This document shows positions 4,267 to 64,000 of a stretch of 64,000 bases of DNA, one piece after another. Under the pieces are notes generated by a model, which saw only the letters and a list, made by a program, of their open reading frames with translations, was not told the origin of the DNA and did not search any database. A program made the position numbers and the translations under genes. Position 1 is the first letter of the stretch. Each line of letters opens with the position of its first letter. Source of the stretch: Pseudanabaena sp. ABRG5-3 (lineage in GTDB: Bacteria; Cyanobacteriota; Cyanobacteriia; Pseudanabaenales; Pseudanabaenaceae); contig NZ_AP017560.1 in assembly GCF_003967015.1 (NCBI RefSeq), forward strand, positions 4,686,501 to 4,750,500. The letters run 5' to 3'.

Positions 4267-4383
4267 ATATAGCTATCGCCAAGTGTACTAGGACATAAAA
4301 CCCAAGAATTGATTGGCGGCGCTCCGCGCCGCCAATCAATTCTTGGGTTTTGATTTGTCCTAAGACAAGTGACTGTAGCTATA
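4267..4383. repeat. Palindromic element, family C copy 1 (about 117 bp)
   Basis: The ends are TATAGCTA(T/C) and its inverted match. Inside is a subterminal conserved block (ACTTGTCTTAGGACAAATC on one side, GTACTAGGACATAAAA on the other) and a core hairpin with arms AACCCAAGAATTGATTGGCG GCG around CTCC. Near-identical copies lie at 5845-5960 and 24766-24881, with a variant at 57914-58028. The open frame that crosses it on the minus strand (4146-4397) is an artefact of the palindrome. No protein is encoded. The rest of the spacer 4137-4584 shows HIP1 sites but no gene. Confidence 0.85.
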
Positions 4384-6038: not shown

Positions 6039-7298
6039 TCAAATGATATAGAAGGATTTTTTCTGCCCCTTCAGAGGTAAGCGGACTGTAAAACAACTTC
6101 CCTGACCAAGCTGGCTGGTGCAATCGACATAGCCCCCGTGGAGTTCTACGAGTTGATGGACTAAGGCTAATCCTAATCCTGAGCCTTCGTATTTGCGAGC
6201 GAACCCACTATCAATCTGGATAAATGGCTGAAATATTTTGTCGCGATCGCTAGGTGCAATACCAATACCTGTATCGGTAACTGAGAAATGGATCCAACTG
6301 CACAAATTCTGATCAGTTTTCAAGCTAACATCCAGACTTACCTTACCGCCAGAGGGGGTAAATTTGATGGCATTATCGAGCAAATTGATTAATATCTGTC
6401 TCCATCGCCGCTCATCAACTTCAATAACTTCTAAATCTAGAGATAGACTCATAGAAAGTTGAATTTGCTTTTTGAGAGCTTTGAGTTGAATAAATTCTAG
6501 ACAGGAGTTACATAAATCGGCGATCGCTACAGTTGTGATATCTAGCTTGAGCATACCTGCCATAATTTTGGAGGCATCAAGCATGTCAGAAATTAGTTCC
6601 AGTAGATGCTCACCACTGTTTCTAATAGTCTCGAGAGCATCCTCTTGGCTCGAATTAATTGTGCCGAATAATTCTTCATGTAAGCATTCGGTCATCCCTA
6701 GAATGGCGTTGAGTGGTGTCCGTAACTCATGGCTCATATTGGCAAGAAACTCATCTTTGAGCTTAGTAGTGCGTATGAGTTCAGCATTAGTACGTTCTAA
6801 ATTGATGTTGAGAGCTTCTAAGGTGGTATAAGCCTTGTAAGATCGCAAAGCCGTAATAATCGTTGTAAATAGCTTTTGGGAAGTAAATTCTGTTTTGGTT
6901 TTGTAATCATCGATATCATAATCGACCATTGCTTGGCGTTCAGGTACTTGCCCCGGTTGACCAGTTCGGAGAATAATCCGAATTGCCCGATTTTGAAGGT
7001 TTTCACGGATGTATTTGGCGGTGATCAATCCTGCGTCATCAGATTCCATAATCACATCAAGTAAAGTGACAGCAATGTCAGGATTCTCATCCATGATCTG
7101 ACGTGCTTCTTTACCAGAATAGGCACTGAGGAACTGGAGTTTCTTATTATCAAAGCTGAAATCTTCTAAGGCGAGTCGCGTGATGTTATGAATTTCTACT
7201 TCATCATCAACGATCAGGACTTTCCAAGCATCTATACCTTGTGACGATGCTTGATCAACTTCATCTTCATCTGCAAACTCCATCAAGTCATTAATCAT
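6039..7298 (-). CDS. Receiver-histidine kinase hybrid (N-terminal receiver)
   Basis: The 419-residue soluble protein has an N-terminal receiver (about 24-150) with acidic residues D31/D32, phospho-acceptor D81 (LLDVIMES) and a 'RIILRTGQPGQVPE' stretch. A coiled linker (150-180) and a HisKA domain follow (FLANMSHELRTP, His190), then HATPase_c with the N box DNAIKF and G box GSGLGLAL. It has no other sensor, so phosphorylation of the receiver probably sets kinase output. The receiver closely resembles that of the GGDEF protein at 60550-61779. The kinase core resembles that of the CBS-PAS kinase at 21547-23952. It lies 3' of the giant kinase on the same strand, across a 478-base repeat-filled gap, which suggests but does not prove a phosphorelay. 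Confidence 0.92.
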   Translation of the reverse strand: MINDLMEFADEDEVDQASSQGIDAWKVLIVDDEVEIHNITRLALEDFSFDNKKLQFLSAYSGKEARQIMDENPDIAVTLLDVIMESDDAGLITAKYIRENLQNRAIRIILRTGQPGQVPERQAMVDYDIDDYKTKTEFTSQKLFTTIITALRSYKAYTTLEALNINLERTNAELIRTTKLKDEFLANMSHELRTPLNAILGMTECLHEELFGTINSSQEDALETIRNSGEHLLELISDMLDASKIMAGMLKLDITTVAIADLCNSCLEFIQLKALKKQIQLSMSLSLDLEVIEVDERRWRQILINLLDNAIKFTPSGGKVSLDVSLKTDQNLCSWIHFSVTDTGIGIAPSDRDKIFQPFIQIDSGFARKYEGSGLGLALVHQLVELHGGYVDCTSQLGQGSCFTVRLPLKGQKKSFYII

Positions 7299-7688: not shown

Positions 7689-7781
7689 TATAGCAGTCCT
7701 AAATCATTTGTAGAATTTTTGGTTTGTGGAAACGTCACCCCTTCGGGGTGACGTTTCCACAAACCAATTAGGATTGCTATA
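7689..7781. repeat. Palindromic element, family E, containing the kinase stop codon
   Basis: Ends TATAGCAGTCCTAAAT and (inverted) AATTAGGATTGCTATA enclose a perfect core hairpin (GGTTTGTGGAAACGTCACCC, centre CTTC). The minus-strand stop codon of the giant kinase gene (TAG, 7777-7779) lies inside the TGCTATA terminus. A related degenerate copy is nested at about 39358-39435. Confidence 0.65.
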
Positions 7782-10700
7782 GAGGAATTTGAATAATAAA
7801 TTTAGTACCCACGCCAACTTGACTTTCACAGGTAATACTACCTTGGAGCTTTTGGGTTACAAGGTTATAAACTATGTGTAGCCCCAAACCACTGCCTCCT
7901 TGCCCACGTTTGGTTGTATAAAACGGATCAAAAATTTTGCCAATGTTATCTGAGGAAATACCTTTACCATCATCACTAAATTCAAAGATAAGACGCTGGT
8001 TTTGTTCAGAAATAACGAAGAGAATTGTCCCATTGTCATTAGGATCGTAGGCATGGATTAAGGAATTCATCACTAAGTTGGTAGTGATTTGGGAAATCAA
8101 ACCCGGAAAACTGTCAAGGATGATATTATCGGCACAATCAATTTGCACATTGATTTTTGTCCGTTTGAGTTTTGGCTGGAGATTGAGTAAAACTTCTTCA
8201 AGGTAGGCTTTAAGATTAAACGATCGCCTTTCTTCGCTAGATTGATCAACGGCGACCTGCTTAAAGCTCTGAATCAGTTCGGCAGCGCGATTTAAATTAG
8301 ACAGAACGATCATGCTGCTTTGTTGGAGGCTGTCCATAAATTTTTCGAGATCCGATCGCTTCAGTGAGCCATTCTTAATCGCATTGGCAAGATCTTGAGT
8401 TTTATCGGCAATTAAGGACGCTGCGGTCACGCCAATGCCAAGGGGGGTATTAATTTCGTGGGCAATACCTGCAACTAGTCCCCCTAAGGCTGCCATTTTT
8501 TCGGATTCGACTAGTTCTGTTTGAGCTGCCTTGAGGTTGGTGAGAGCTTGGGATAGTTCTTGGGTACGATCGCTCACTAATTGTTCTAAATTTTCGTTAA
8601 AGAGCTTGAGGTTGCTATATAAACGGGCATTATTGATGGCGATCGCTGCTTGGCTAGAGAGCAGCGTAAGGACTTTGAGGCGATCAATGGTAAAGGCTTC
8701 GGTAACAAGATCATTTTCGAGATAGAGAATCCCCGCAAGTTCACCTTGATTGATTAAAGGCATACATAGTAATGATTTTGGTTGATGCAGTTGAATATAG
8801 TCATCGTTAGTAAATTTGCCTTCTTGGGTGGCATTGCCCAGCACAACACTTTCTAAGGTGCGGGCAACAAAATTGACGATTGAGACGGGGACGGCACTTT
8901 CCATAGAGCGAGACCCTAGTACTTCGATTTCATCGCTGCCTGCATTGCCGATCGCTTCAATTTTTAATCCTTCTTCCCTTTCAAGGATGAGATAGCCAAC
9001 CTGCGCCCCAGCATTTTCGATCAAGATCTTCATGAGTTTAGCGAGGAGCTTTTTTAAGTCGATTTCATCGGAAAGAATTTGGAATGTCTTCACAACCGAA
9101 GCTAAATCAATTTCCATCGATCTATTCGCCATCATTGTCGTTGTACTCAGACTAGAGTAGCGATTATCAAATAACTGTGCATCTTTATGAGAAGCAAACC
9201 TGTGACTAAAAAACTGTAAATAGGTCACTTGTAAATGCTGTACTTTGGCGATCGCACCCCAAATTTGATAGCAAGAGGAAGCATCGATAAAATAAGTTTG
9301 GGCAATTTTATCTCTACCATATTGGAGATGGAACTTACCCGCTCTCTCGTTAGCTAGAGCTTCTTCTTGAATATATTCATTTTCCCTTGCCCCTTTAATA
9401 GCGCGATCATAGTATGCCATTGCTTCAATTTGATTACCTAGTAATGCGTATCGTTCTGCTTCTACTAACTCATATTTATGTTGAAAGTTCATTGGACAAT
9501 GTTTCGCCCAGCGCCGCATTTTATTCTGGTTTTTCGCAACTTTCTTCAGATAAATTTGGCGGGAAGATTTCGGCAAACTGCTGCACAAGCCTAAACAAGC
9601 AAGGGATTGATAGAAATTATGGAGGGCAAATCCGTACGCACTGACAATTGATCGCGCGAAGGGTACAGCTTGCTCAAAAGCAGGGATTGCCTCTTTGTAG
9701 TCGTAGAAGAAATAATGCGACATCCCCTTAGCGGTGTAAGTATAGTAAATGGGAATTCCATTCTTTTCTGCCAAAAAAGTGGGAAGCATCTCGAACTCGT
9801 CTATAGCTGTACCAACAAGAAATGGCATATTTTCTCCTAATCCTACAAAATTGAGGGCTAGCTGATGCCAAGCTCGGTGCTGATCGACGATCTGGGGTTG
9901 TTTGATTTTATTTAATAGTAAACCATCATAATTTTGAAAATCTTGAATAACCAATCCTAAAGGATCACCGACAAAAAAACGATGCATAGAGTAAGCCGAT
10001 ACACTAAAGCTGATCGCTTCATATTCGCCAAATTCAATACCGATTTGGATGGCTTGGCGTAAGTTGGGTACAGAGTCTCTGAGATGCTCTTTCCAGTGCC
10101 TCAGACAAGCTTCAAAGGCTGATATAGATAAAGAAGAACCAGCCCGAACATGCTTTTGTTCGATTAATTGTAAACTCACTAAACCAATCCGATAGCTTCT
10201 TTCGATGTCCTGAAAAGCAACCCAGCGAATTAATCCATAGGCAGCACCAATAATGAGTGAATCTGGTGAGACTCCGTATTGGAGGATCAAATTGACGATA
10301 CGGAGAATTACGATTCCCACAAGTAAAGGATTCAAATTAATTGCCGATGTTGCGATGGTAGTCATAATATAGACCGCCGCAATCTTGTAGGGATCGGTCA
10401 TCGCTGGTAAAGCTGTCCAATCCTTGATCCCCCGTAAGCGAGTGCGTAGTTCTGTCCGCAGGAGTTCTATCCCAACTTGCAACTCACTTGGAAAAGGTGG
10501 AATCGGTTCACCTAAACGAATGAGGATTGAATTTACGGTTGTGGGAACTTCGTGAAATTTTCTCTGGGCGGTATAGGCATTAATCTTCACCTTGTAGGAC
10601 TTAATCGTATCAAGAATATGATTGGCATGGTGCATAATGCGATCGACTAAGCGATGACACTCATCAAAGTCAGTATTCAAGTAGGCTGATTCTGCTGCCG

Positions 10701-13119
10701 CCTCATAGAGTTTCAGTGTTAATGGGTAGTGAACTTCCCATGACATGTCTGGTAATAGACCGATACCGATCGCTAGGTAATTTTGGGCATCTGCATAGGC
10801 ATTAGAATCTTTGGCTTTTTTTCCTGCAATCAAATTTAATTCTGCTAGTTCGAGGCGTTCTTCAGGATCGCGAATCAATCCCATGCCCCTATTGAGGTGA
10901 TTGGCAATCCGAAAAGCTTCCTCTTCGATCGCTAATTTTTCGCCGTGTTCTACCTTATGATCGCGAACTTTTTTGAACAGTTGCCGACCAATTTTAAGAT
11001 GGGTAACTTGTTTCTCAGATTCGGGAATCAGCACATAGGCTGCTTGTTGGACACGATCATGGAGAAATTTGTAGTCAATGGAAAAATCCTCGGAAAACTC
11101 ATTTTCGCTATCAACGATCGCAAATTTATAGTTGTTCGTTAGCGGCAAGATCAAGCCTTCGGTTAAAACTGGCAATAGATCTTGCAGTACTAGTCGATGG
11201 GGTCTTTCGGTGGCGATCGCAAGGGTTTGAGAATCAAAATGGTTGCCAATACAGGCCGCAATTTGGATCATTTTCTGAGTGTCGGGTGTGAGCTTTTGGA
11301 TTTTGTCCGACATCAAATCAACCACATTATCGGTAAAATCTGCGGACTGGATTTGGTCTAAATTCCATTGCCAGACTCGTTTTTTTAAATCAAAATAGAT
11401 TAATCCTCCCTCGTACAATGACTTAAGAAATTCGTTAATAAAAAAAGGATTACCATCGGTTTTTTGGAAGACAATTTCGGAAAGAGGTTTAATTGTTTCG
11501 TGATCGCATTTGAGCGTATCCGCAACTAATTCATCCACATCTGATTGATCTAGGGGCAGTAGGACGATATCGTTGATAGCAGTTCCAGTGGCTGCAATCT
11601 CATTGAGCGTTAACCTTAATGGATGAATAGCATCGACTTCATTATTACGATAGGCTCCAATGATGTAGAGAAACTGGCTATCTGTGGAAGTTACTAGCAA
11701 TTCTAAAAGTTTTAAAGAGGCAGCATCAGCCCATTGGAGATCGTCTAAAAAGATCACGAGGGGATGGTTTGGTTTGGTAAAAACGCGCACGAAGTTCTGA
11801 AAAACTAAATTGAACCGATTCTGAGCTTCGGTGAGCGGAAGTTCCAAAACTGCTGCTTGCTTACCCACGATCTTCTCTACTTCGGGGATCACATCAATAA
11901 TAATTTGGGCATTTTTCCCTAAGGCATTCAATAATTGATCGCGCCATGTTTGGAGTTGGCTTTCAGTTTCAGTTAGCAATTGTGTGACGAGGTCGCGAAA
12001 GGCATTGACAACAGCGCTATAGGGAATATTGCGTTGAAACTGGTCAAACTTCCCTGAAATGAAGTAACCCCTTTGTTTGGTAATTGGCTTGTAGATTTCG
12101 TGAACGAGTGCGGATTTACCGATGCCAGAGAAACCCGTGACCATAATTACTTCAGCTTTTCCAAGGCTCAGACATTCAAATACCGCTAGTAATAGCCAAA
12201 TTTCTAGTTCTCGCCCATAGAGTTTTTGGGAAACTTGAAACTTATCGGAAATATCCTGTGTGCCTAGTACAAAATTGGTAATTTCGCCTTTAGTTTCCAA
12301 TAGTCTTGTACAAAGGGTTAAATCCGCTTTTAACCCCTGAGCACTTTGATAGCGATCTTCTACTGTTTTTGCCAATAGTTTCATGACAATATCCGAGACG
12401 GTTTGGGGAATCTCAGAATTGAGGCTGCATGGTGCTATGGGGATTTTGGCAATATGGCAATGGACTAACTCGACAGGATCGTTAGCAGTAAAAGGAAGTC
12501 GATCGGTGAGGAGTTCATATAGAGTTACACCCAAAGAATAGAGATCGCTACGGTTATCAAGGGTACGGTTCATTCGCCCTGTTTGCTCAGGTGACATATA
12601 GCTAAGTGTCCCTTCAAGTGTATGCGGATTACGGATGGTGGGATTTTCTCGCGACAAAATGTTTGAGATGCCAAAATCAATAATTTTGACTTGAGATGTC
12701 CTTGGATTAAACACGATATTAGAGGGATTGATGTCTTTATGAATGACATTTGCCCCATGAATTTCGCTAAGAATATCGGCAACTTGGGCGGCGATCTCTA
12801 AAATTTCAATCAGATTAAAACTGCGCGATTTCTTCAAGATGCGAATTGATTCTCCTCCAAAATCTTCAAAGGCGATACAGCGAAATCGTTGATATTTGAT
12901 AAAGCTGTAGGCTTTGACTACTCCCTCAATCTGGCTGAGCCGACTACAGATTTCATATTCTAATTTGTACCTCGCGATCGCCTCAGGGGTTGGGTACTCT
13001 AATTTGAGAATTTTCAGAATAATCGGTTGATAATCGTTAGTCCGATATCCTCTATACACCAGCGATAATTCGCTTTCATAAATTAACGAATTAATTTTGT
13101 ATTCAGGAATCTCAAACAT
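7777..13119 (-). CDS. HstK-type Ser/Thr kinase-AAA ATPase-GAF-histidine kinase
   Basis: This 1780-residue multidomain signalling protein has the HstK architecture known from Anabaena. A Pkn2-type Ser/Thr kinase occupies 1-270, with the ATP lysine K36, HKD (127-129), DFG (148-150) and GTLSYMSPEQ. An AAA_16 ATPase follows, with Walker A GFSGIGKS (329-336) and Walker B VIFLDDLQWAD. A long helical TPR-like region fills about 700-1330. A GAF domain covers about 1340-1500. The C-terminus is a histidine kinase with the H box AGIAHEINTP and G box GGSGLGLHI. It is cytosolic. It can in principle combine Ser/Thr and His phosphorylation; the ligand is unknown. The kinase core is strikingly like the stand-alone kinase at 59440-60420. 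The ATG at 13119 starts directly at the kinase domain. Confidence 0.95.
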   Translation of the reverse strand: MFEIPEYKINSLIYESELSLVYRGYRTNDYQPIILKILKLEYPTPEAIARYKLEYEICSRLSQIEGVVKAYSFIKYQRFRCIAFEDFGGESIRILKKSRSFNLIEILEIAAQVADILSEIHGANVIHKDINPSNIVFNPRTSQVKIIDFGISNILSRENPTIRNPHTLEGTLSYMSPEQTGRMNRTLDNRSDLYSLGVTLYELLTDRLPFTANDPVELVHCHIAKIPIAPCSLNSEIPQTVSDIVMKLLAKTVEDRYQSAQGLKADLTLCTRLLETKGEITNFVLGTQDISDKFQVSQKLYGRELEIWLLLAVFECLSLGKAEVIMVTGFSGIGKSALVHEIYKPITKQRGYFISGKFDQFQRNIPYSAVVNAFRDLVTQLLTETESQLQTWRDQLLNALGKNAQIIIDVIPEVEKIVGKQAAVLELPLTEAQNRFNLVFQNFVRVFTKPNHPLVIFLDDLQWADAASLKLLELLVTSTDSQFLYIIGAYRNNEVDAIHPLRLTLNEIAATGTAINDIVLLPLDQSDVDELVADTLKCDHETIKPLSEIVFQKTDGNPFFINEFLKSLYEGGLIYFDLKKRVWQWNLDQIQSADFTDNVVDLMSDKIQKLTPDTQKMIQIAACIGNHFDSQTLAIATERPHRLVLQDLLPVLTEGLILPLTNNYKFAIVDSENEFSEDFSIDYKFLHDRVQQAAYVLIPESEKQVTHLKIGRQLFKKVRDHKVEHGEKLAIEEEAFRIANHLNRGMGLIRDPEERLELAELNLIAGKKAKDSNAYADAQNYLAIGIGLLPDMSWEVHYPLTLKLYEAAAESAYLNTDFDECHRLVDRIMHHANHILDTIKSYKVKINAYTAQRKFHEVPTTVNSILIRLGEPIPPFPSELQVGIELLRTELRTRLRGIKDWTALPAMTDPYKIAAVYIMTTIATSAINLNPLLVGIVILRIVNLILQYGVSPDSLIIGAAYGLIRWVAFQDIERSYRIGLVSLQLIEQKHVRAGSSLSISAFEACLRHWKEHLRDSVPNLRQAIQIGIEFGEYEAISFSVSAYSMHRFFVGDPLGLVIQDFQNYDGLLLNKIKQPQIVDQHRAWHQLALNFVGLGENMPFLVGTAIDEFEMLPTFLAEKNGIPIYYTYTAKGMSHYFFYDYKEAIPAFEQAVPFARSIVSAYGFALHNFYQSLACLGLCSSLPKSSRQIYLKKVAKNQNKMRRWAKHCPMNFQHKYELVEAERYALLGNQIEAMAYYDRAIKGARENEYIQEEALANERAGKFHLQYGRDKIAQTYFIDASSCYQIWGAIAKVQHLQVTYLQFFSHRFASHKDAQLFDNRYSSLSTTTMMANRSMEIDLASVVKTFQILSDEIDLKKLLAKLMKILIENAGAQVGYLILEREEGLKIEAIGNAGSDEIEVLGSRSMESAVPVSIVNFVARTLESVVLGNATQEGKFTNDDYIQLHQPKSLLCMPLINQGELAGILYLENDLVTEAFTIDRLKVLTLLSSQAAIAINNARLYSNLKLFNENLEQLVSDRTQELSQALTNLKAAQTELVESEKMAALGGLVAGIAHEINTPLGIGVTAASLIADKTQDLANAIKNGSLKRSDLEKFMDSLQQSSMIVLSNLNRAAELIQSFKQVAVDQSSEERRSFNLKAYLEEVLLNLQPKLKRTKINVQIDCADNIILDSFPGLISQITTNLVMNSLIHAYDPNDNGTILFVISEQNQRLIFEFSDDGKGISSDNIGKIFDPFYTTKRGQGGSGLGLHIVYNLVTQKLQGSITCESQVGVGTKFIIQIPL

Positions 13120-57913: not shown

Positions 57914-58028
57914 TATAGCAGTGAAAGTTTTGCTTAGGACAAACCCAAATAAACAAAGACGGCGCTTCGCGCCGTCTTTGTTTATTTGGGTTTTGATTTG
58001 TCCTAGCTATCTCTTGCATTGCTGTATA
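57914..58028. repeat. Palindromic element, family C variant (copy 4)
   Basis: Ends TATAGCAGTG and (inverted) TGCTGTATA enclose TTAGGACAAACCC ... GGGTTTTGATTTGTCCTA and a different core hairpin (AAATAAACAAAGACGGCGC, centre TTCG). The sequence ATCTCTTGCATTGCT occurs just before the element (57896-57910) and again within its right part (58009-58023), possibly a target duplication. The spacer 57830-58120 has no gene; 57846-57865 is one arm of the hairpin element of 7609. Confidence 0.65.
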
Positions 58029-58120: not shown

Positions 58121-59266
58121 ATGTTCAAAGTAGCTGTTGGTCATAGTAATGATCCTGACAGTTTGGAAGCTATTAATGAAACTTTAGAACAATGCCTCAT
58201 ATCGCTTGGTGGAGTATTACCGCAAGCAGGCATCTTATTTGCCGCGATCGATTTTGACTATAGCTTGCTTCTGCAACGCATTAATGACACATTTCCCAAC
58301 ATCGAACTGATTGGTGGCTCTACGGATGGTGAAGTCTCTTCTGTTTTGGAATTTCAGCAAGACTCGATAACCTTAATGCTTTTCTGTTCCGATGAAATCG
58401 AAATTCGAGCAGCCATTGGCAAAAATGTTTCTCAAAATCCCGTGGAAATTGCCCGTCAATCGATTGAATCAACAAAGCAGCAACTTACCTTACCAATCAA
58501 GTTTTGTATTACCATGATCGAGAGCTTGACTACGAGTGCGGTTTCGATTTTGCAAGGTTTCGATTTAGCCCTTGGGAATATCCCCATCTTTGGAGGAGCT
58601 ACTGCTGACCAATGGCGATATAAACAGACGTATCAATTTTATAAAAATGAAGTGCTTAGCGATGCTGTCGTAACATTATTATTTGCGGGGAATATTGTTT
58701 TTTCTCATGGTAGGTCTGGTGGATGGAGACCGATTGGGAAACGGAGCTTAGTTACCAAAGTTGATAAAAATATCATCTATGAAATAGACCATAAACCTGC
58801 CTTAGATTTTTATTATTATTATCTAAATATTGACGAGCCAGATTCTGTCTATCCCTTAGCAGTATTTCCACCTAATGAAGAAACCTTTTTTCTGCGCGGA
58901 GCTATTTCCTACGATAAAAATACAGGTAGCATTACTGTTTCAGGGGATATTCCTGAAAATTCGATTGTCCAAATTACTGATACCTGCCTTGAAGATGTGA
59001 TTGCCGCATCACAAACTTCTTTCGCTGAGGCAAAAGCAAATTATGCAGGTCAAGCTCCAGAAGCGGCTCTTCTTTTCTCCTGCGCTTGGCGTAGACAAAT
59101 TTTGGGTACTAGAGCCAATGAGGAATATCAAGCGATCGCAAATTTGTCTACACCAGCTCTCCCCAGTTGTGGATTTTATACCTATGGAGAAATTTCGCCG
59201 TTAAGTGAGCATGGACAAACTTTTTTCCATAACACAACTTTTTTAACTTTACTACTTGGTAATTAG
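58121..59266 (+). CDS. FIST domain sensory protein (NosP-like)
   Basis: The 381-residue protein has an N-terminal FIST domain (FKVAVGHSNDPDSLEAINET ... 'ELIGGSTDGEVSS') and a C-terminal FIST_C part (about 225-365; 'PLAVFPPNEETFFLRGAISYD', then 'ALLFSCAWRRQILG'). It is soluble. FIST proteins are sensors of small ligands; the NosP members bind heme and nitric oxide and control a partner histidine kinase. The next gene is a histidine kinase with no sensor domain, then a receiver-GGDEF protein, an arrangement like the NosP systems. Which ligand binds here, and whether heme does, cannot be told. Confidence 0.9.
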   Translation: MFKVAVGHSNDPDSLEAINETLEQCLISLGGVLPQAGILFAAIDFDYSLLLQRINDTFPNIELIGGSTDGEVSSVLEFQQDSITLMLFCSDEIEIRAAIGKNVSQNPVEIARQSIESTKQQLTLPIKFCITMIESLTTSAVSILQGFDLALGNIPIFGGATADQWRYKQTYQFYKNEVLSDAVVTLLFAGNIVFSHGRSGGWRPIGKRSLVTKVDKNIIYEIDHKPALDFYYYYLNIDEPDSVYPLAVFPPNEETFFLRGAISYDKNTGSITVSGDIPENSIVQITDTCLEDVIAASQTSFAEAKANYAGQAPEAALLFSCAWRRQILGTRANEEYQAIANLSTPALPSCGFYTYGEISPLSEHGQTFFHNTTFLTLLLGN

Positions 59267-59439
59267 TAAAGATGTTTTATAGAAGTTCGCATTTTTCCTA
59301 AGTTATTTGGCATAATTCAAATCCAGAAACTGCGTTGTAGGTTCTAGGATCAGCCTAATTGCAGCAAAATGGAAACTCAAAACCTATTATAAGAATTAGA
59401 ATTAGTTCTGCTTTGAACCACTCATTTAGAGGTGTATTA

Positions 59440-60420
59440 ATGGAAGAAGATGAAGCTAAAATCAAAAAATTAGAGAAAGAGAATCGGATTCTCAAAAAGA
59501 AATTAGAACGTTCAGAAATTGATCGCTCTAGTCTCGAAACTACTAATCGTAATAAAGAAACTTTGCTCAAAAAAGTGATTTGTGATTTACAGGAATATCA
59601 AGTCATTCTCGAAAAGAAAAGCCTTGATCTAGAACAAACCTTAAATGATTTATCACTTATGCAAAATAAATTAGTTGAGGCAGAAAAGATGGCAGCTTTG
59701 GGCAGTTTAGTTGCTGGTGTTGCCCATGAAATCAACACTCCTGTAGGAACAAGCATCACCCTTGCTTCTACCTTGAGGGATGAGACTCAGTTGTTAATCA
59801 CATTAGTAGAAACTGGTTGTCTCAAGAAGTCACTGTTAAATCATTATATAGAAGTTGCCTCAGAAGTAAGTAGTTTAATCCTGAGTAATTTAAATCGGGC
59901 TGGTGAATTAGTGCACAGTTTTAAGCAAGTTGCTGTCGATCAAGCTAATTCCGAAAAAAGAAATTTTAAAGTCAAAGAATATATAGAAGAAGTCGTAATC
60001 AGTATTTCTCCTAAATTTAAACAGAATTTATATAAAGTAGCAATTACAGGTGATGACTTAATTAATATCTATAGCTATCCCGGAGCTTTAGCCCAAGTAA
60101 TTACTAATTTAGTGGATAATTCTACTCTTCACGCCTACTTACCTGATCAGTCTGGGCATATTCATATTGAGGTTCAAAAACAAACAGATCAAGTAATTAT
60201 TAAATACAAAGATGATGGTTTGGGGATCGACCCACAGATATCTGGTCGAATATTTGAACCGTTTTTTACCACCGCTCGCGAGAAAGGTGGCACGGGCTTA
60301 GGTCTACACATTACCTACAATTTAGTTACTCAAAAATTACAAGGAAGTATTGATTGTGAAAGTGAAATCGGAAAAGGTACACTATTTACTATAGCTTTGC
60401 CAAATACTATAAATTCTTAG
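59440..60420 (+). CDS. Stand-alone histidine kinase (NahK-like context)
   Basis: The 326-residue soluble kinase has no sensor domain. I start at ATG 59440 (MEEDEAKIKKLEKENRILKK), since the earlier frame is only a weak leader. A coiled coil (1-100) leads to HisKA with the box AGVAHEINTP and HATPase_c with 'GGTGLGLHITYNLVTQKLQG'. The core is strikingly similar to that at the C-terminus of the giant kinase at 7777-13119, including 'HSFKQVAVDQ' and 'TNLV-NS--HAY'. It follows the FIST gene (173-base gap) and precedes the receiver-GGDEF gene (129-base gap), and probably signals between them. Confidence 0.9.
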   Translation: MEEDEAKIKKLEKENRILKKKLERSEIDRSSLETTNRNKETLLKKVICDLQEYQVILEKKSLDLEQTLNDLSLMQNKLVEAEKMAALGSLVAGVAHEINTPVGTSITLASTLRDETQLLITLVETGCLKKSLLNHYIEVASEVSSLILSNLNRAGELVHSFKQVAVDQANSEKRNFKVKEYIEEVVISISPKFKQNLYKVAITGDDLINIYSYPGALAQVITNLVDNSTLHAYLPDQSGHIHIEVQKQTDQVIIKYKDDGLGIDPQISGRIFEPFFTTAREKGGTGLGLHITYNLVTQKLQGSIDCESEIGKGTLFTIALPNTINS

Positions 60421-60549
60421 CTTAGATAATTTGTAGTTTTTGCTAAATATAATCCATTATTCCAATGGTAGATTCTCATATGTATTTGAAACCAAATATA
60501 CTTCATATATAAATCCCTATATATTTCTCTATATATTTTCCATATAGCT

Positions 60550-61779
60550 ATGTTATCTAATTTGACTCCAGAAAATTCTAATCCCAAAAACAACCAAATA
60601 GATACATCTAGTGATGAAGATGATAAAATCATATTTCATGATGAAGATGATCTAGTTCTAGAAGCTACCCATAATTTAGATATAAATTCTCAAGAATTAG
60701 TCATAGATAAATGGAAAGTAATAATTGCTGATGATGACCCTGATGTGCATCGGGCAACACAGATAGCCCTTAAAAATCTTATATTTGAAGGTAAGTTAGT
60801 AGTTTTCTTATCTGCCTATTCAGCCGAAGAATGTAAGCGATTAATTACAGATATTCATCCTGATGCAGCTTTGGTTTTGTTAGATGTAGTTATGGAAACC
60901 AACAATGCAGGATTAAACTTAGTAAAGTATATTCGGGAAGAATTAAATAATCATCAAATCCGTATTATTTTGCGAACAGGGCATCCGGGGGAGGCTCCTG
61001 AAGAGTCTGTGATACTTAATTACGATATTAATGATTACAAGCTAAAGATAGAATTGACTCGTCAAAATCTACTGACAACCGTACTTGCATCCCTTAGAGC
61101 TTATCGAGATATCACAATCATAGAGCAACAAAAAATCAAACTCGCACAAGCTTTTAAAAATTTGCAAAAAGTACAACTGCAACTGGAAGAATATACTTAT
61201 ACCTTAGAAAAGAAGATTGCGGATCGGACTTCAGCTCTAGAGCTAGCAAATCGAAGGCTTCAGCGACTAGCCCAAATAGATGGGTTAACTCAAGTAGCAA
61301 ATCGTCGTTGCTTTGATGAATATTGGCTCCAACAGTGGAATATGCTCCAGCAGGAGCAGCAACCTATCTCATTGATGTTAATCGATATAGACTATTTCAA
61401 GCACTATAATGATCATTATGGGCATTTAGCTGGAGATGAATGTTTACGGCAAGTTGCTCAAGGAATTAGTAACTTATTAATGCGTCCTCAAGATCTGGTG
61501 GCACGTTATGGTGGGGAAGAGTTTGTGGTGGTATTACCCCATACCCAAATCGAAGGAGCAAAGAAGGTAGCTGAGCAAATCATGACAGTAATTGAGGATC
61601 TCAATCTTACTCATGTCAAATCCTTAGTCAGCGATCGCATTACTTTGAGTATTGGTATTTCCTGTGTTGTTCCTAATTCCAATCTTTTGGTGGATATGCC
61701 GATTTCTTTGGCTGACAAAGCTCTCTATCAGGCGAAACGGGAAGGGCGCAATCGTATTGTTTTGGCGCTAGATAGCTAA
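60550..61779 (+). CDS. Response regulator with GGDEF (diguanylate cyclase) domain
   Basis: The 409-residue protein has a long acidic leader (1-50), a receiver with D61-D63 and phospho-acceptor D112 (LLDVVMET), a coiled linker (190-235) and a GGDEF domain (about 240-405). The active site is GGEEF (321-325) and the product-inhibition site RxxD is intact (RPQD, 312-315), so it should make cyclic di-GMP under feedback control. The receiver has the ILRTGHPGEAPE block also found in the receiver-kinase at 6039-7298. Phosphorylation by the adjacent kinase is likely. Confidence 0.94.
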   Translation: MLSNLTPENSNPKNNQIDTSSDEDDKIIFHDEDDLVLEATHNLDINSQELVIDKWKVIIADDDPDVHRATQIALKNLIFEGKLVVFLSAYSAEECKRLITDIHPDAALVLLDVVMETNNAGLNLVKYIREELNNHQIRIILRTGHPGEAPEESVILNYDINDYKLKIELTRQNLLTTVLASLRAYRDITIIEQQKIKLAQAFKNLQKVQLQLEEYTYTLEKKIADRTSALELANRRLQRLAQIDGLTQVANRRCFDEYWLQQWNMLQQEQQPISLMLIDIDYFKHYNDHYGHLAGDECLRQVAQGISNLLMRPQDLVARYGGEEFVVVLPHTQIEGAKKVAEQIMTVIEDLNLTHVKSLVSDRITLSIGISCVVPNSNLLVDMPISLADKALYQAKREGRNRIVLALDS

Positions 61780-61786
61780 TTTTGGA

Positions 61787-61890
61787 TAAGTAGCTGGGCG
61801 CAATTAAATATAAAACCAGAAAAGCTGTGGCGCACGCGCAGCGTGCGCCACAGCTTTTGACTCTGTTTTTTAATTATGCCCAGCTACTTA
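61787..61890. repeat. Palindromic element, family A copy 4
   Basis: TAAGTAGCTGGGCGCAATTA at the left and ATTATGCCCAGCTACTTA at the right frame a core hairpin (AAAAGCTGTGGCGCACGC, complementary arm GCGTGCGCCACAGCTTTT, with GC at the centre). The right terminus holds the stop codon of the cyclase gene. It sits between convergent genes and may serve as a terminator for both. Confidence 0.85.
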
Positions 61891-64000
61891 CTTGTTTGCC
61901 AGTTAATCCATGCGTTGAGATCGTTCGGGACTGTGGTGAAATGTAGATAAATTTGTTTGATAGGATGCGATCGCTGTTGAGAAATTGCAGAAATCGTGAG
62001 ATTGTTCTCTAAATCCAAATTATCTGATATTGCTTGATTGGGTTGATGATGCTTTAAGACTTTGGCATAGATTTCGCCTTCGATTACAACAGTTTGAGAA
62101 GGATTGAGTTGGTCAGGAGCAGAAACTTGAAGATGTAGTTTGATATTAGTTAATACAGGTAGATCCTCTTTTGCCAAGATCTCTGCTCCATAGGGCGATA
62201 GTCGTCGAATCTCACCTTCAAAGATCTCTGTACCAAGATGTTTCTCTTCTAAAATACGATAGGTAATCGCAATGGGCTTAGGCAAGATTTGCAGAGAATC
62301 ATTAATCGAAGGAAGTTCGAGATTATAAATACCGCCAATGCCGCAAATATCGTAGATTAAAATAGGATGCGACACGCCCTTAGGTTCTACTTCCATCGAA
62401 CCATTAGTTTTGACAATCGCCTGTATTTCGTTATAGGTTGTTTCCGATATCAAAATCTGACCACCAACGGTATAGGATTCAATCCTTGCTGTGAGATTGA
62501 CATGATTGCCGACAACGGCATATTTCGCGCGAGAATGGGAGCCGATATTGCCTGCAACTACTTCACCTGTATTAATGCCAATGCCCATCGCGATTTCTGG
62601 TAAGCCCAGTTGTGTAAGTTGGGCATTTACTGATCGCATAGCAAGCTGCATCGCGATCGCACTAGCGACTGCCCTTGCGGCATCATCTTCACGATGGATG
62701 GGCGCACCAAAGAGAACCAAAATGGCATCACCGATAAATTCATCAATTGTGCCTTGATAGGTAGCGATCGCCTCAGTCATCGTTCCCAAAAATACATTGA
62801 GAATTTCTACTACTTTTTCGGGAGGCATTTTCTCGGAAATAGTAGAGAAACCACGTAGATCGCACATGAGAATTGTGACTTTGCGGCGATCGCCTCCAAA
62901 TTTTAGACCTTCGGGAGTTTCTAATAAACTTTTGACGACAGCATCGGTTAAATAGCGACTAAAGTAAGCCCGAATTTGCGCTGCCGTAATTGCTAGATAG
63001 CTGGTCACGATTGCCCCACCACCTAAAAAGCCAATCATCGCAGGCACAAAGGGCAACCACCAACCATAGCCTAAGGCAATAAAACAAGCAGCAAATAGAC
63101 TGCCACCCAGTGCTAATACACTGAGCGATCGCAACATTAAAAGCTGAAATTCGCGTTCCTTTACCTTGACATTGCGCCATTGCCAAATTAAGAGAGAACC
63201 AGTCAACGACCAACCAAAAATCCATAGCCATTCCCAAGGTTTTTCCCAAGTGTGAATCCCTGAACGACCATCAAGAGAACTGCTCAGAATATGACTAACT
63301 AGTTGAGCATGAACTTCAATTCCTGATGTAAAGATGCGCGTACTGCCAATGCCGCTATCAAGGGGAGTGAAAAACCAATCTCTTAAACTGACTGCCGTTA
63401 CCCCAATCATCACCACGCGATCGCGCAGTAAATCAGGGGCAATTTTGCCTTCTAACACATCTGCCATTCGCACGGTCTGAAAACCGTTAAGAGATCGGCG
63501 ATAGTTCACAATAAATTGATGTCCACCCACATCAGCATGGCTATAGCCACCATCATTGGTGCGTAATCTAGGGGGATTGAGTGCTTGCTCAAAGGGAACT
63601 GTTTTTTCGCCATCTAGATAGAGCAAAGATAGTTGTAAGCTGAAGCTAGGAGAAACTTTGCCATCGGATGAACGTAAAGCGAGCAATCCTCTACGAACCC
63701 TGCCATCGGTATCAACTGGAAGATTGATTGCGCCAATTTGTTCTGGAGGAAGGGCAGGTGGGGGATTGATATTAGAACTAGCGATCGCAAAATTAGAGTC
63801 AACGAGATCGGCTGTTTTGGTTGCACCAACTAGATTTGGCGTACTTTTAAACAAGGCTTCTAATTGTGAATAGCCAGCACCGACAGGTTTATCACGGGCA
63901 AGATCGAGCCCGATCGCCCGTGGTTTTTGTTTGCGTACTTTGTCTAATAATTGGGTCAATAAAGCATCATCAATGGGCCAAGCATATTGACGGACATCTG
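61884..64000 (-). CDS. CHASE2-adenylate/guanylate cyclase, 5' end outside window
   Basis: The frame is open to the end of the window (the TTG at 63959 is not the start; DVRQYAWPIDDALL precedes it), so more than 700 residues are present and the N-terminus is missing. An extracellular CHASE2 sensor leads to three membrane segments, e.g. WLWIFGWSLTGSLLIW and SVLALGGSLFAACFIALG. A class III nucleotidyl cyclase domain follows with the metal-binding DLRGFSTISE and a second Asp in DAILVLFGAP, the 'EFIGD' block and the transition-state region 'NLTARIES'. A PilZ-like domain may form the C-terminus (GEIRRLSPYGAEILA). It probably makes cAMP. Its stop codon lies within a family A palindrome. Confidence 0.92.
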   Translation of the reverse strand, partial: DVRQYAWPIDDALLTQLLDKVRKQKPRAIGLDLARDKPVGAGYSQLEALFKSTPNLVGATKTADLVDSNFAIASSNINPPPALPPEQIGAINLPVDTDGRVRRGLLALRSSDGKVSPSFSLQLSLLYLDGEKTVPFEQALNPPRLRTNDGGYSHADVGGHQFIVNYRRSLNGFQTVRMADVLEGKIAPDLLRDRVVMIGVTAVSLRDWFFTPLDSGIGSTRIFTSGIEVHAQLVSHILSSSLDGRSGIHTWEKPWEWLWIFGWSLTGSLLIWQWRNVKVKEREFQLLMLRSLSVLALGGSLFAACFIALGYGWWLPFVPAMIGFLGGGAIVTSYLAITAAQIRAYFSRYLTDAVVKSLLETPEGLKFGGDRRKVTILMCDLRGFSTISEKMPPEKVVEILNVFLGTMTEAIATYQGTIDEFIGDAILVLFGAPIHREDDAARAVASAIAMQLAMRSVNAQLTQLGLPEIAMGIGINTGEVVAGNIGSHSRAKYAVVGNHVNLTARIESYTVGGQILISETTYNEIQAIVKTNGSMEVEPKGVSHPILIYDICGIGGIYNLELPSINDSLQILPKPIAITYRILEEKHLGTEIFEGEIRRLSPYGAEILAKEDLPVLTNIKLHLQVSAPDQLNPSQTVVIEGEIYAKVLKHHQPNQAISDNLDLENNLTISAISQQRSHPIKQIYLHFTTVPNDLNAWINWQTSK

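Follow-up and report, generated by a model that had tools for sequence, protein, structure and literature searches.

A cyanobacterial gene trio of FIST protein, sensorless histidine kinase and receiver-GGDEF protein: a likely c-di-GMP switch whose kinase core seems to have been exchanged

Results

Gene content and motifs of the locus

Three intact genes, lying in a row on the plus strand at positions 58121-61779 of a 64,000-nucleotide stretch of the Pseudanabaena sp. ABRG5-3 genome (the whole stretch is hereafter termed the window), encode a FIST protein, a histidine kinase and a receiver-GGDEF protein (Table 1). The host genome measures 5.66 Mb, and the closest named relatives of the window belong to Pseudanabaena. 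Pfam searches and motif reading bore out the gene content proposed by a first-pass annotation, including a kinase in which the Pfam scan found no sensor domain, a GGEEF motif with an intact RxxD, and a CHASE2 cyclase converging from the other side. The "short gaps" of that annotation did not hold: the kinase open frame begins at a TTG (59359), several relatives align only from residue 28, which is the ATG at 59440, and with the start placed at this ATG the intergenic gaps amount to about 173 bp and 129 bp, which is not very short.

The first protein scored 156.5 bits with PF08495 (cut-off 23.2) and 102 bits with PF10442 (cut-off 28.5), which places it in the FIST family by both domains. In the kinase, HATPase_c reached 85.3 bits (cut-off 26.4) and HisKA 22.2, under its Pfam threshold of 26.9, and the H-box is present; the motifs HEINTP, NLVDN, DDGLGI, FEPFFTT and GGTGLGL were all found, and every ATP-binding box is there (boxes named by the usual convention). 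The third protein matched GGDEF with 173 bits and holds the D61-D63 run, D112, T143, K164, RPQD at 312 and GGEEF at 321; with an intact GGEEF and a receiver bearing a phospho-acceptor Asp, it is a predicted response-regulator diguanylate cyclase. The GGEEF, RxxD and D112 are intact in all seven receiver-GGDEF proteins compared. An acidic N-terminal tail, possibly a docking feature, precedes receivers of the trio type in the window (60550-60670; 6039-7298) and in two further loci (L221, 85-1743; L222, 4574-5836 and 6236-7723).

A coil specific to FIST-linked kinases

Scanning named genomes yielded 564 FIST relatives, of which the best 80 loci were analysed. In every one of these 80 loci a kinase gene on the same strand directly follows the FIST gene, with a gap that is below 40 bp or negative in 76 and amounts to 106, 246, 302 and 396 bp in the other four (one locus, L075, has broken reading frames). 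Alignment of the kinases (A3) showed a predicted coil of some 85 residues at their N-terminus. A model of this coil scored above 25 bits in 80/80 kinases, a match that is by construction as 18 of its 19 rows come from these or like loci; among the 1361 open frames that these loci contain only one other exceeded this score, namely the second FIST-linked kinase of L103. Across 386 genomes of the phylum, 36 full-length coil matches of at least 91 bits were recovered (the next match had 66 bits), and 34 of them begin 481-660 bp behind a same-strand FIST N domain. Read most simply, this linkage would mean that FIST docks on the coil; the coil marks the FIST-kinase contact and probably makes it. The kinase behind FIST in all 80 loci, together with the dedicated coil, argues for the earlier proposal that the FIST protein is the partner of the sensorless kinase.

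Locus L103 (8001-12849; Elainella) holds two FIST-kinase pairs in tandem, and at L145 (5001-6996; an Aliiroseovarius plasmid) a FIST relative has an adenylate/guanylate cyclase gene behind it in place of a kinase gene. Phage records gave one weak FIST match.

Conservation of the trio

Some FIST protein occurs in all 38 genomes of the family, yet one at least 62% identical to that of the window occurs in only 6; in all 6, the kinase and the receiver-GGDEF gene lie behind it, a grouping beyond chance. The trio was also found in G042, Scytolyngbya, Nodosilinea, a pond metagenome-assembled genome (MAG) and a Thermosynechococcaceae MAG (L190, L064-L067). The first-pass annotation, which had named a trio not kept in related genomes as grounds for giving up its reading, therefore withstood this check. 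Only 5 of the 6 family genomes have the CHASE2 cyclase next to the trio, and it was rejected as a component of the system on this count. A second FIST protein of the host (about 400 residues; G000:C1:3038761-3039354, L002) falls in a separate clade, and its type is present in other family genomes and in a Synechococcus elongatus search row.

Among the 80 analysed loci, a receiver-GGDEF protein of the window kind follows 6 of the FIST-linked kinases. These are all of the trio-core kinases with enough contig (6/6), and 6 of the 10 kinases with a TP-type H-box; in the remaining four, the contig ends 320 bp on (L124) or the core is a different one (L119, L129, L137). No such gene was found within 400 bp behind the kinases with a common or unread H-box (0/70). 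The Firmicutes loci L129 and L137 show a hybrid kinase with two receivers and an Hpt domain (only L129 was domain-scanned), then a gene whose product has an HD-GYP motif and begins like a receiver. The pairing of the kinase with the receiver-GGDEF protein, as first proposed, is upheld by their co-occurrence in every readable locus of the clade.

Exchange of the kinase core

We compared the kinases of the trio clade (7 rows) with the other FIST-linked kinases (64 rows). A filter on length and a single reading frame excluded 9 of the 80 from the identity comparisons and trees (L069, L075, L091, L107, L120, L129, L131, L137 and L138), and L111 was removed by hand from the present comparison; the 64 rows contain L119 and L124, whose cores are unlike the common one, which lowers the contrast rather than raising it. 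Over residues 1-95, the trio clade was 49.9% identical to the others, against 53.1% among the others themselves, while over residues 96-326 the corresponding values were 27.4% and 54.0%. For the accompanying FIST proteins they were 53.1% and 56.4%. In the host genome, the nearest relatives of the core are 50% and 52% identical (next, 35%); one lies in a Ser/Thr kinase-AAA-GAF-kinase protein in the window (7777-13119), the other in a CHASE2 kinase on contig 7. Because the core is 50-52% identical to these differently built kinases and 27% identical to the other FIST-linked ones, the trio kinase seems to be a chimera, in which the coil was kept and the catalytic core exchanged.

In a tree of 36 cores, the trio cores grouped with the two paralogues of the host genome (support 100/99), and a single clade of all FIST-linked cores was rejected, being 216 log units worse (approximately unbiased test, p-AU 9.3e-6). 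On a tree of 37 FIST proteins (33 typed rows), the eight FISTs with a trio-type core fall into a single clade (100/100), and three changes of core type are seen, one in the trio clade, one in L119 and one in the Firmicutes pair. Of the 8 other places holding a trio-type core, 6 have a receiver of the trio type within 1.5 kb, suggesting that the receiver type came along with the exchanged core.

Family position of the FIST protein

The first-pass annotation had called the pathway NosP-like, after the heme/nitric oxide (NO) sensors of the FIST family. The gene placement agrees with this, as a kinase lies directly behind the window FIST: in a sample of Pseudomonadota, 18 of 299 genomes had a protein over the NosP cut-off, and in all 13 regions read out of the 18 a kinase directly follows NosP. 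The label itself is not supported. The NosP profile (NF041558) gave the window FIST 89.8 bits (E 1.8e-25), the curated cut-off being 450. In a quick tree of 29 of the 81 A-group FISTs and 51 others, which contains some long branches, the window FIST and the NosPs fell in separate clades (Shimodaira-Hasegawa-like approximate likelihood ratio test, 99 and 100), with the NosPs on a long branch of their own (support 100). The column of window Gly201 holds His in 18/18 NosPs over the cut-off and in 66% of 12 proteins just below it, as opposed to Gly in 81/81 relatives of the window FIST and also in groups B and C. On these comparisons the architecture is common to NosP systems and the FIST family is not, the window FIST being by sequence only a distant cousin of NosP.

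In the N-termini read, the NosP-linked kinases carry a separate coil, for which a common origin with the cyanobacterial coil was not supported (hidden Markov model E-value 0.019 at best; hhalign probability 7%, though with an E-value of 0.0013). Core swaps among NosP kinases were not supported either, their N-terminus (51%) and the rest (50-52%) being equally conserved.

Three residues, His8 (100%), Cys25 (94%) and Cys129 (99%), are conserved across the 81 FISTs of the window clade, and groups B, C, N and n lack them at those columns; they possibly form a clade-specific ligand site. In the open-licence literature, of which part was available, no paper joining NosP, cyanobacteria and nitric oxide was found that concerned a cyanobacterial NosP, and none combined the FIST domain, cyanobacteria and a histidine kinase; both are weak negatives.

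Fold and a conserved Cys/Glu pair

The AlphaFold2 model of the FIST protein had a mean predicted local distance difference test score of 91.8, and its closest solved fold was FBXO22 (Foldseek E 2e-12; VIA-align Z 23.6 over 269 residues, 3.2 A), followed in VIA-align by chorismatase (Z 15.8) and cyanuric acid hydrolase (Z 14.2). That the FBXO22 FIST domain resembles these two enzymes has been published before (PMC11185555, partial text). When compared with PDB sequences, single FIST proteins and profile A1 (built without the FIST fragment L044) found no FIST-like match; only the mixed profile A2, of 26 diverse FISTs, found FBXO22, as its best match (E 6e-4; 0.015 for the aligned stretch alone), and in this alignment Cys321 and Glu357 of the window FIST fall on Cys326 and Glu362 of FBXO22. 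In the available part of PMC13316043, Cys326 is described as forming a hemithioacetal with aldehydes, an effect abolished by E362A, and the two residues as holding and activating the aldehyde of NSD2 degraders. This correspondence with an aldehyde-reactive site makes thiol chemistry a rival to heme.

Cys321 is kept in 99, 92, 100, 100 and 100% of five FIST groups and Glu357 in 99-100%, when only 10 of the 381 FIST positions reach 90% in all five; an alignment-free pattern for the pair was present in 145/151 FISTs. A counterpart of His370 exists in 26/26 proteins of alignment A2, but as it occurs in FIST proteins of all kinds it is no marker of heme sensors. At column 66, Cys occurs in 100% of groups B, C, N and n and Gly in the window FIST. 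No paper mentioning both FBXO22 and NosP was found in open-licence PubMed Central.

Surroundings of the trio

Thirteen long hairpins (arms 19-31, one mismatch allowed) were counted in the window, two of which (57941-57993 and 61820-61858) flank the trio, while those at 4297, 5877 and 24798 are near-identical copies; since close relatives have a different hairpin or none 5' of the FIST gene, they resemble mobile palindromic elements. As a possible regulator site, a 20-base palindrome 40 bp 5' of the FIST gene was dismissed, since it occurs at 1 place genome-wide (at most one mismatch) and is not conserved in relatives.

Table 1. Coordinates of the trio, its notable sites and related features in the window
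Feature	Position	Strand	Basis or remark
FIST protein (FIST N + FIST C), 381 residues	58121..59266	+	Pfam; predicted fold
Cys321 codon, aligned with FBXO22 Cys326 (aldehyde-reactive)	59081..59083	+	Alignment, conservation
Glu357 codon, aligned with FBXO22 Glu362	59189..59191	+	Alignment, conservation
Histidine kinase without sensor domain, 326 residues	59440..60420	+	Start ATG 59440 probable
N-terminal coil, kinase residues 1-85, putative FIST docking module	59440..59694	+	
Kinase core, residues 96-326, HEINTPVG type, apparently exchanged relative to most FIST-linked kinases	59725..60420	+	
Receiver-GGDEF protein, 409 residues	60550..61779	+	D112 codon 60883-60885; GGEEF codons 61510-61524
CHASE2-nucleotide cyclase, convergent neighbour	61884..63959	-	Adjoins trio in 5 of 6 family genomes
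Kinase-core paralogue, 50% identical, at the end of a Ser/Thr kinase-AAA-GAF-histidine kinase protein	7777..13119	-	Outside trio
Receiver-histidine kinase protein, receiver 52% identical to that of the trio	6039..7298	-	Adjoins core paralogue

Discussion

Gene order, intact motifs, the linkage of coil to FIST and the core swap are read directly from the sequences; docking, the sign of regulation, phosphotransfer and c-di-GMP output are what we infer from them. The three proteins likely act as a cytoplasmic switch for cyclic di-GMP (c-di-GMP), with the FIST protein as a detachable sensor. In such a switch, FIST would dock on residues 1-85 of the kinase and set its autophosphorylation, and a ligand bound by FIST, the signal being most likely a small molecule at its pocket, would change the grip on the coil. 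The kinase core would hand its phosphate to D112 of the receiver, upon which the GGEEF domain would make c-di-GMP, with the RxxD site providing product feedback. FIST and coil may form a portable input module, which seems to have been joined to another core, along with that core's receiver type, in the clade that comprises Pseudanabaena, Scytolyngbya, Nodosilinea and the Thermosynechococcaceae MAG. The wiring from FIST to kinase to receiver guessed earlier appears well supported.

Several observations weigh against this switch. The receiver scored 29.9 bits, just under the Pfam threshold of 30.2, and with gaps of 173 and 129 bp a single transcript is not assured. Two of the 8 other places holding the trio-type core (L206 and L229) have no receiver of its type within 1.5 kb, the L206 contig holding one about 8 kb away. 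Two coil kinases of the 386-genome search (G136:C1:2956427, L254; G239:C106:3761, L256), from two species of one genus, have no FIST beside them; their FIST may have been lost or be located elsewhere, and the gene next to them resembles one for spermidine synthase. At most 13 candidates were scored per genome in that search, so that weaker copies may be missed.

Two of the alternatives concern the make-up of the trio. That the REC-GGDEF protein (receiver-GGDEF) is a mere neighbour of a FIST-kinase pair whose target is encoded elsewhere would fit the common-core loci, which lack it within 400 bp (0/70), and the four further receivers of the same type in the host genome; its presence in every readable trio-core locus, across at least four genera, and the adjacency of the same core and receiver types in FIST-free loci make this quite unlikely. 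As for the core, its lead-in to the H-box (residues 86-105) is 65.7% identical between the two groups of kinases, as might be expected if it had evolved fast in the trio lineage and had not been exchanged; we regard this as very improbable, given its 50-52% identity to two differently built kinases of the same genome against 27% to the FIST-linked ones, and the loss of 216 log units in the single-clade tree.

The other alternatives concern the signal, for which a small molecule of another kind than those named below is rated likeliest. A true NosP pathway, in which FIST binds heme and reports NO or heme, is suggested by the same gene order in the 13 NosP regions, by the like make-up of the published NosP-NosK-NosR operon, a sensorless kinase with a c-di-GMP regulator (PMC12570481, partial text), by the E-value of the NosP profile and by the His370 counterpart in all 26 A2 proteins; yet this His is found in all FIST kinds, the score lies far below the cut-off, the clade is separate, Gly201 replaces the His of all 18 NosPs, and the coil of the NosP kinases has no clear similarity to that of the trio, so that we find this pathway rather unlikely. 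Thiol sensing, by which Cys321, activated by Glu357, would react reversibly with an aldehyde, another electrophile or NO, draws on the A2 alignment with Cys326 and Glu362, on the hemithioacetal chemistry and the E362A effect in FBXO22 (PMC13316043, partial text) and on the conservation of both residues across the five FIST groups. It is rather doubtful all the same: the conserved Cys may have a structural role, the work on FBXO22 used synthetic aldehydes, the window FIST has Gly in place of the column-66 Cys that groups B, C, N and n share, and the FBXO22 FIST domain has, in the available text of PMC11185555, no obvious ligand pocket and is heme-insensitive. A broader and less probable idea is that FIST is an ancient reversible-covalent sensor with one Cys/Glu site common to cyanobacterial FISTs, NosPs and FBXO22, which would read aldehydes, electrophiles or an NO thiol adduct; the heme sensing of NosP would then be a later addition, and sensor plus coil a plug-in input moved between cores and outputs, these being an orphan kinase, a receiver-GGDEF protein in cyanobacteria and a receiver-HD-GYP protein in the Firmicutes L129 and L137.

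FIST proteins are widespread, yet NosP and one heme-binding case are, to our knowledge, the only ones with a known signal. The loci offer two testable handles, namely a FIST-marking coil whose natural core swaps amount to ready-made chimeras, and a conserved Cys/Glu pair matching an FBXO22 site of known chemistry. Should the coil prove to dock FIST, the kinase partner of a FIST sensor could be read from sequence, and such sensors could be transferred from one kinase to another.

Among known proteins, human FBXO22, an F-box protein with a FIST domain, shares with the window FIST its fold and the in-register Cys/Glu pair, but is a ubiquitin ligase substrate receptor that recognises BACH1 and has no kinase. 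Chorismatases and cyanuric acid hydrolases, of the YjgF-derived three-repeat fold, resemble FIST overall, although they are enzymes. PleD-type response-regulator diguanylate cyclases combine a receiver with GGEEF and RxxD as the third protein does, which differs from them in its one receiver, acidic N-terminal tail and Pfam-marginal receiver score. Closest in make-up are NosP-NosK-NosR of Burkholderia and NosP-NahK-NarR of Legionella, in which, like in the trio, FIST, kinase and c-di-GMP regulator are encoded together (PMC12570481; PMC8846402; partial texts), NosK likewise being without a sensor domain (PMC12570481). The trio has all the parts of an operon of the NosP-NosK-NosR type, a FIST, a sensorless kinase and a c-di-GMP regulator; unlike in NosP systems, its FIST belongs to another clade and lacks the invariant His of NosP, its kinase coil is different, and its output is a plain GGDEF and not HD-GYP or GGDEF-EAL. 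By analogy, and as far as the available parts of these publications go, both systems would be good functional models for the trio.

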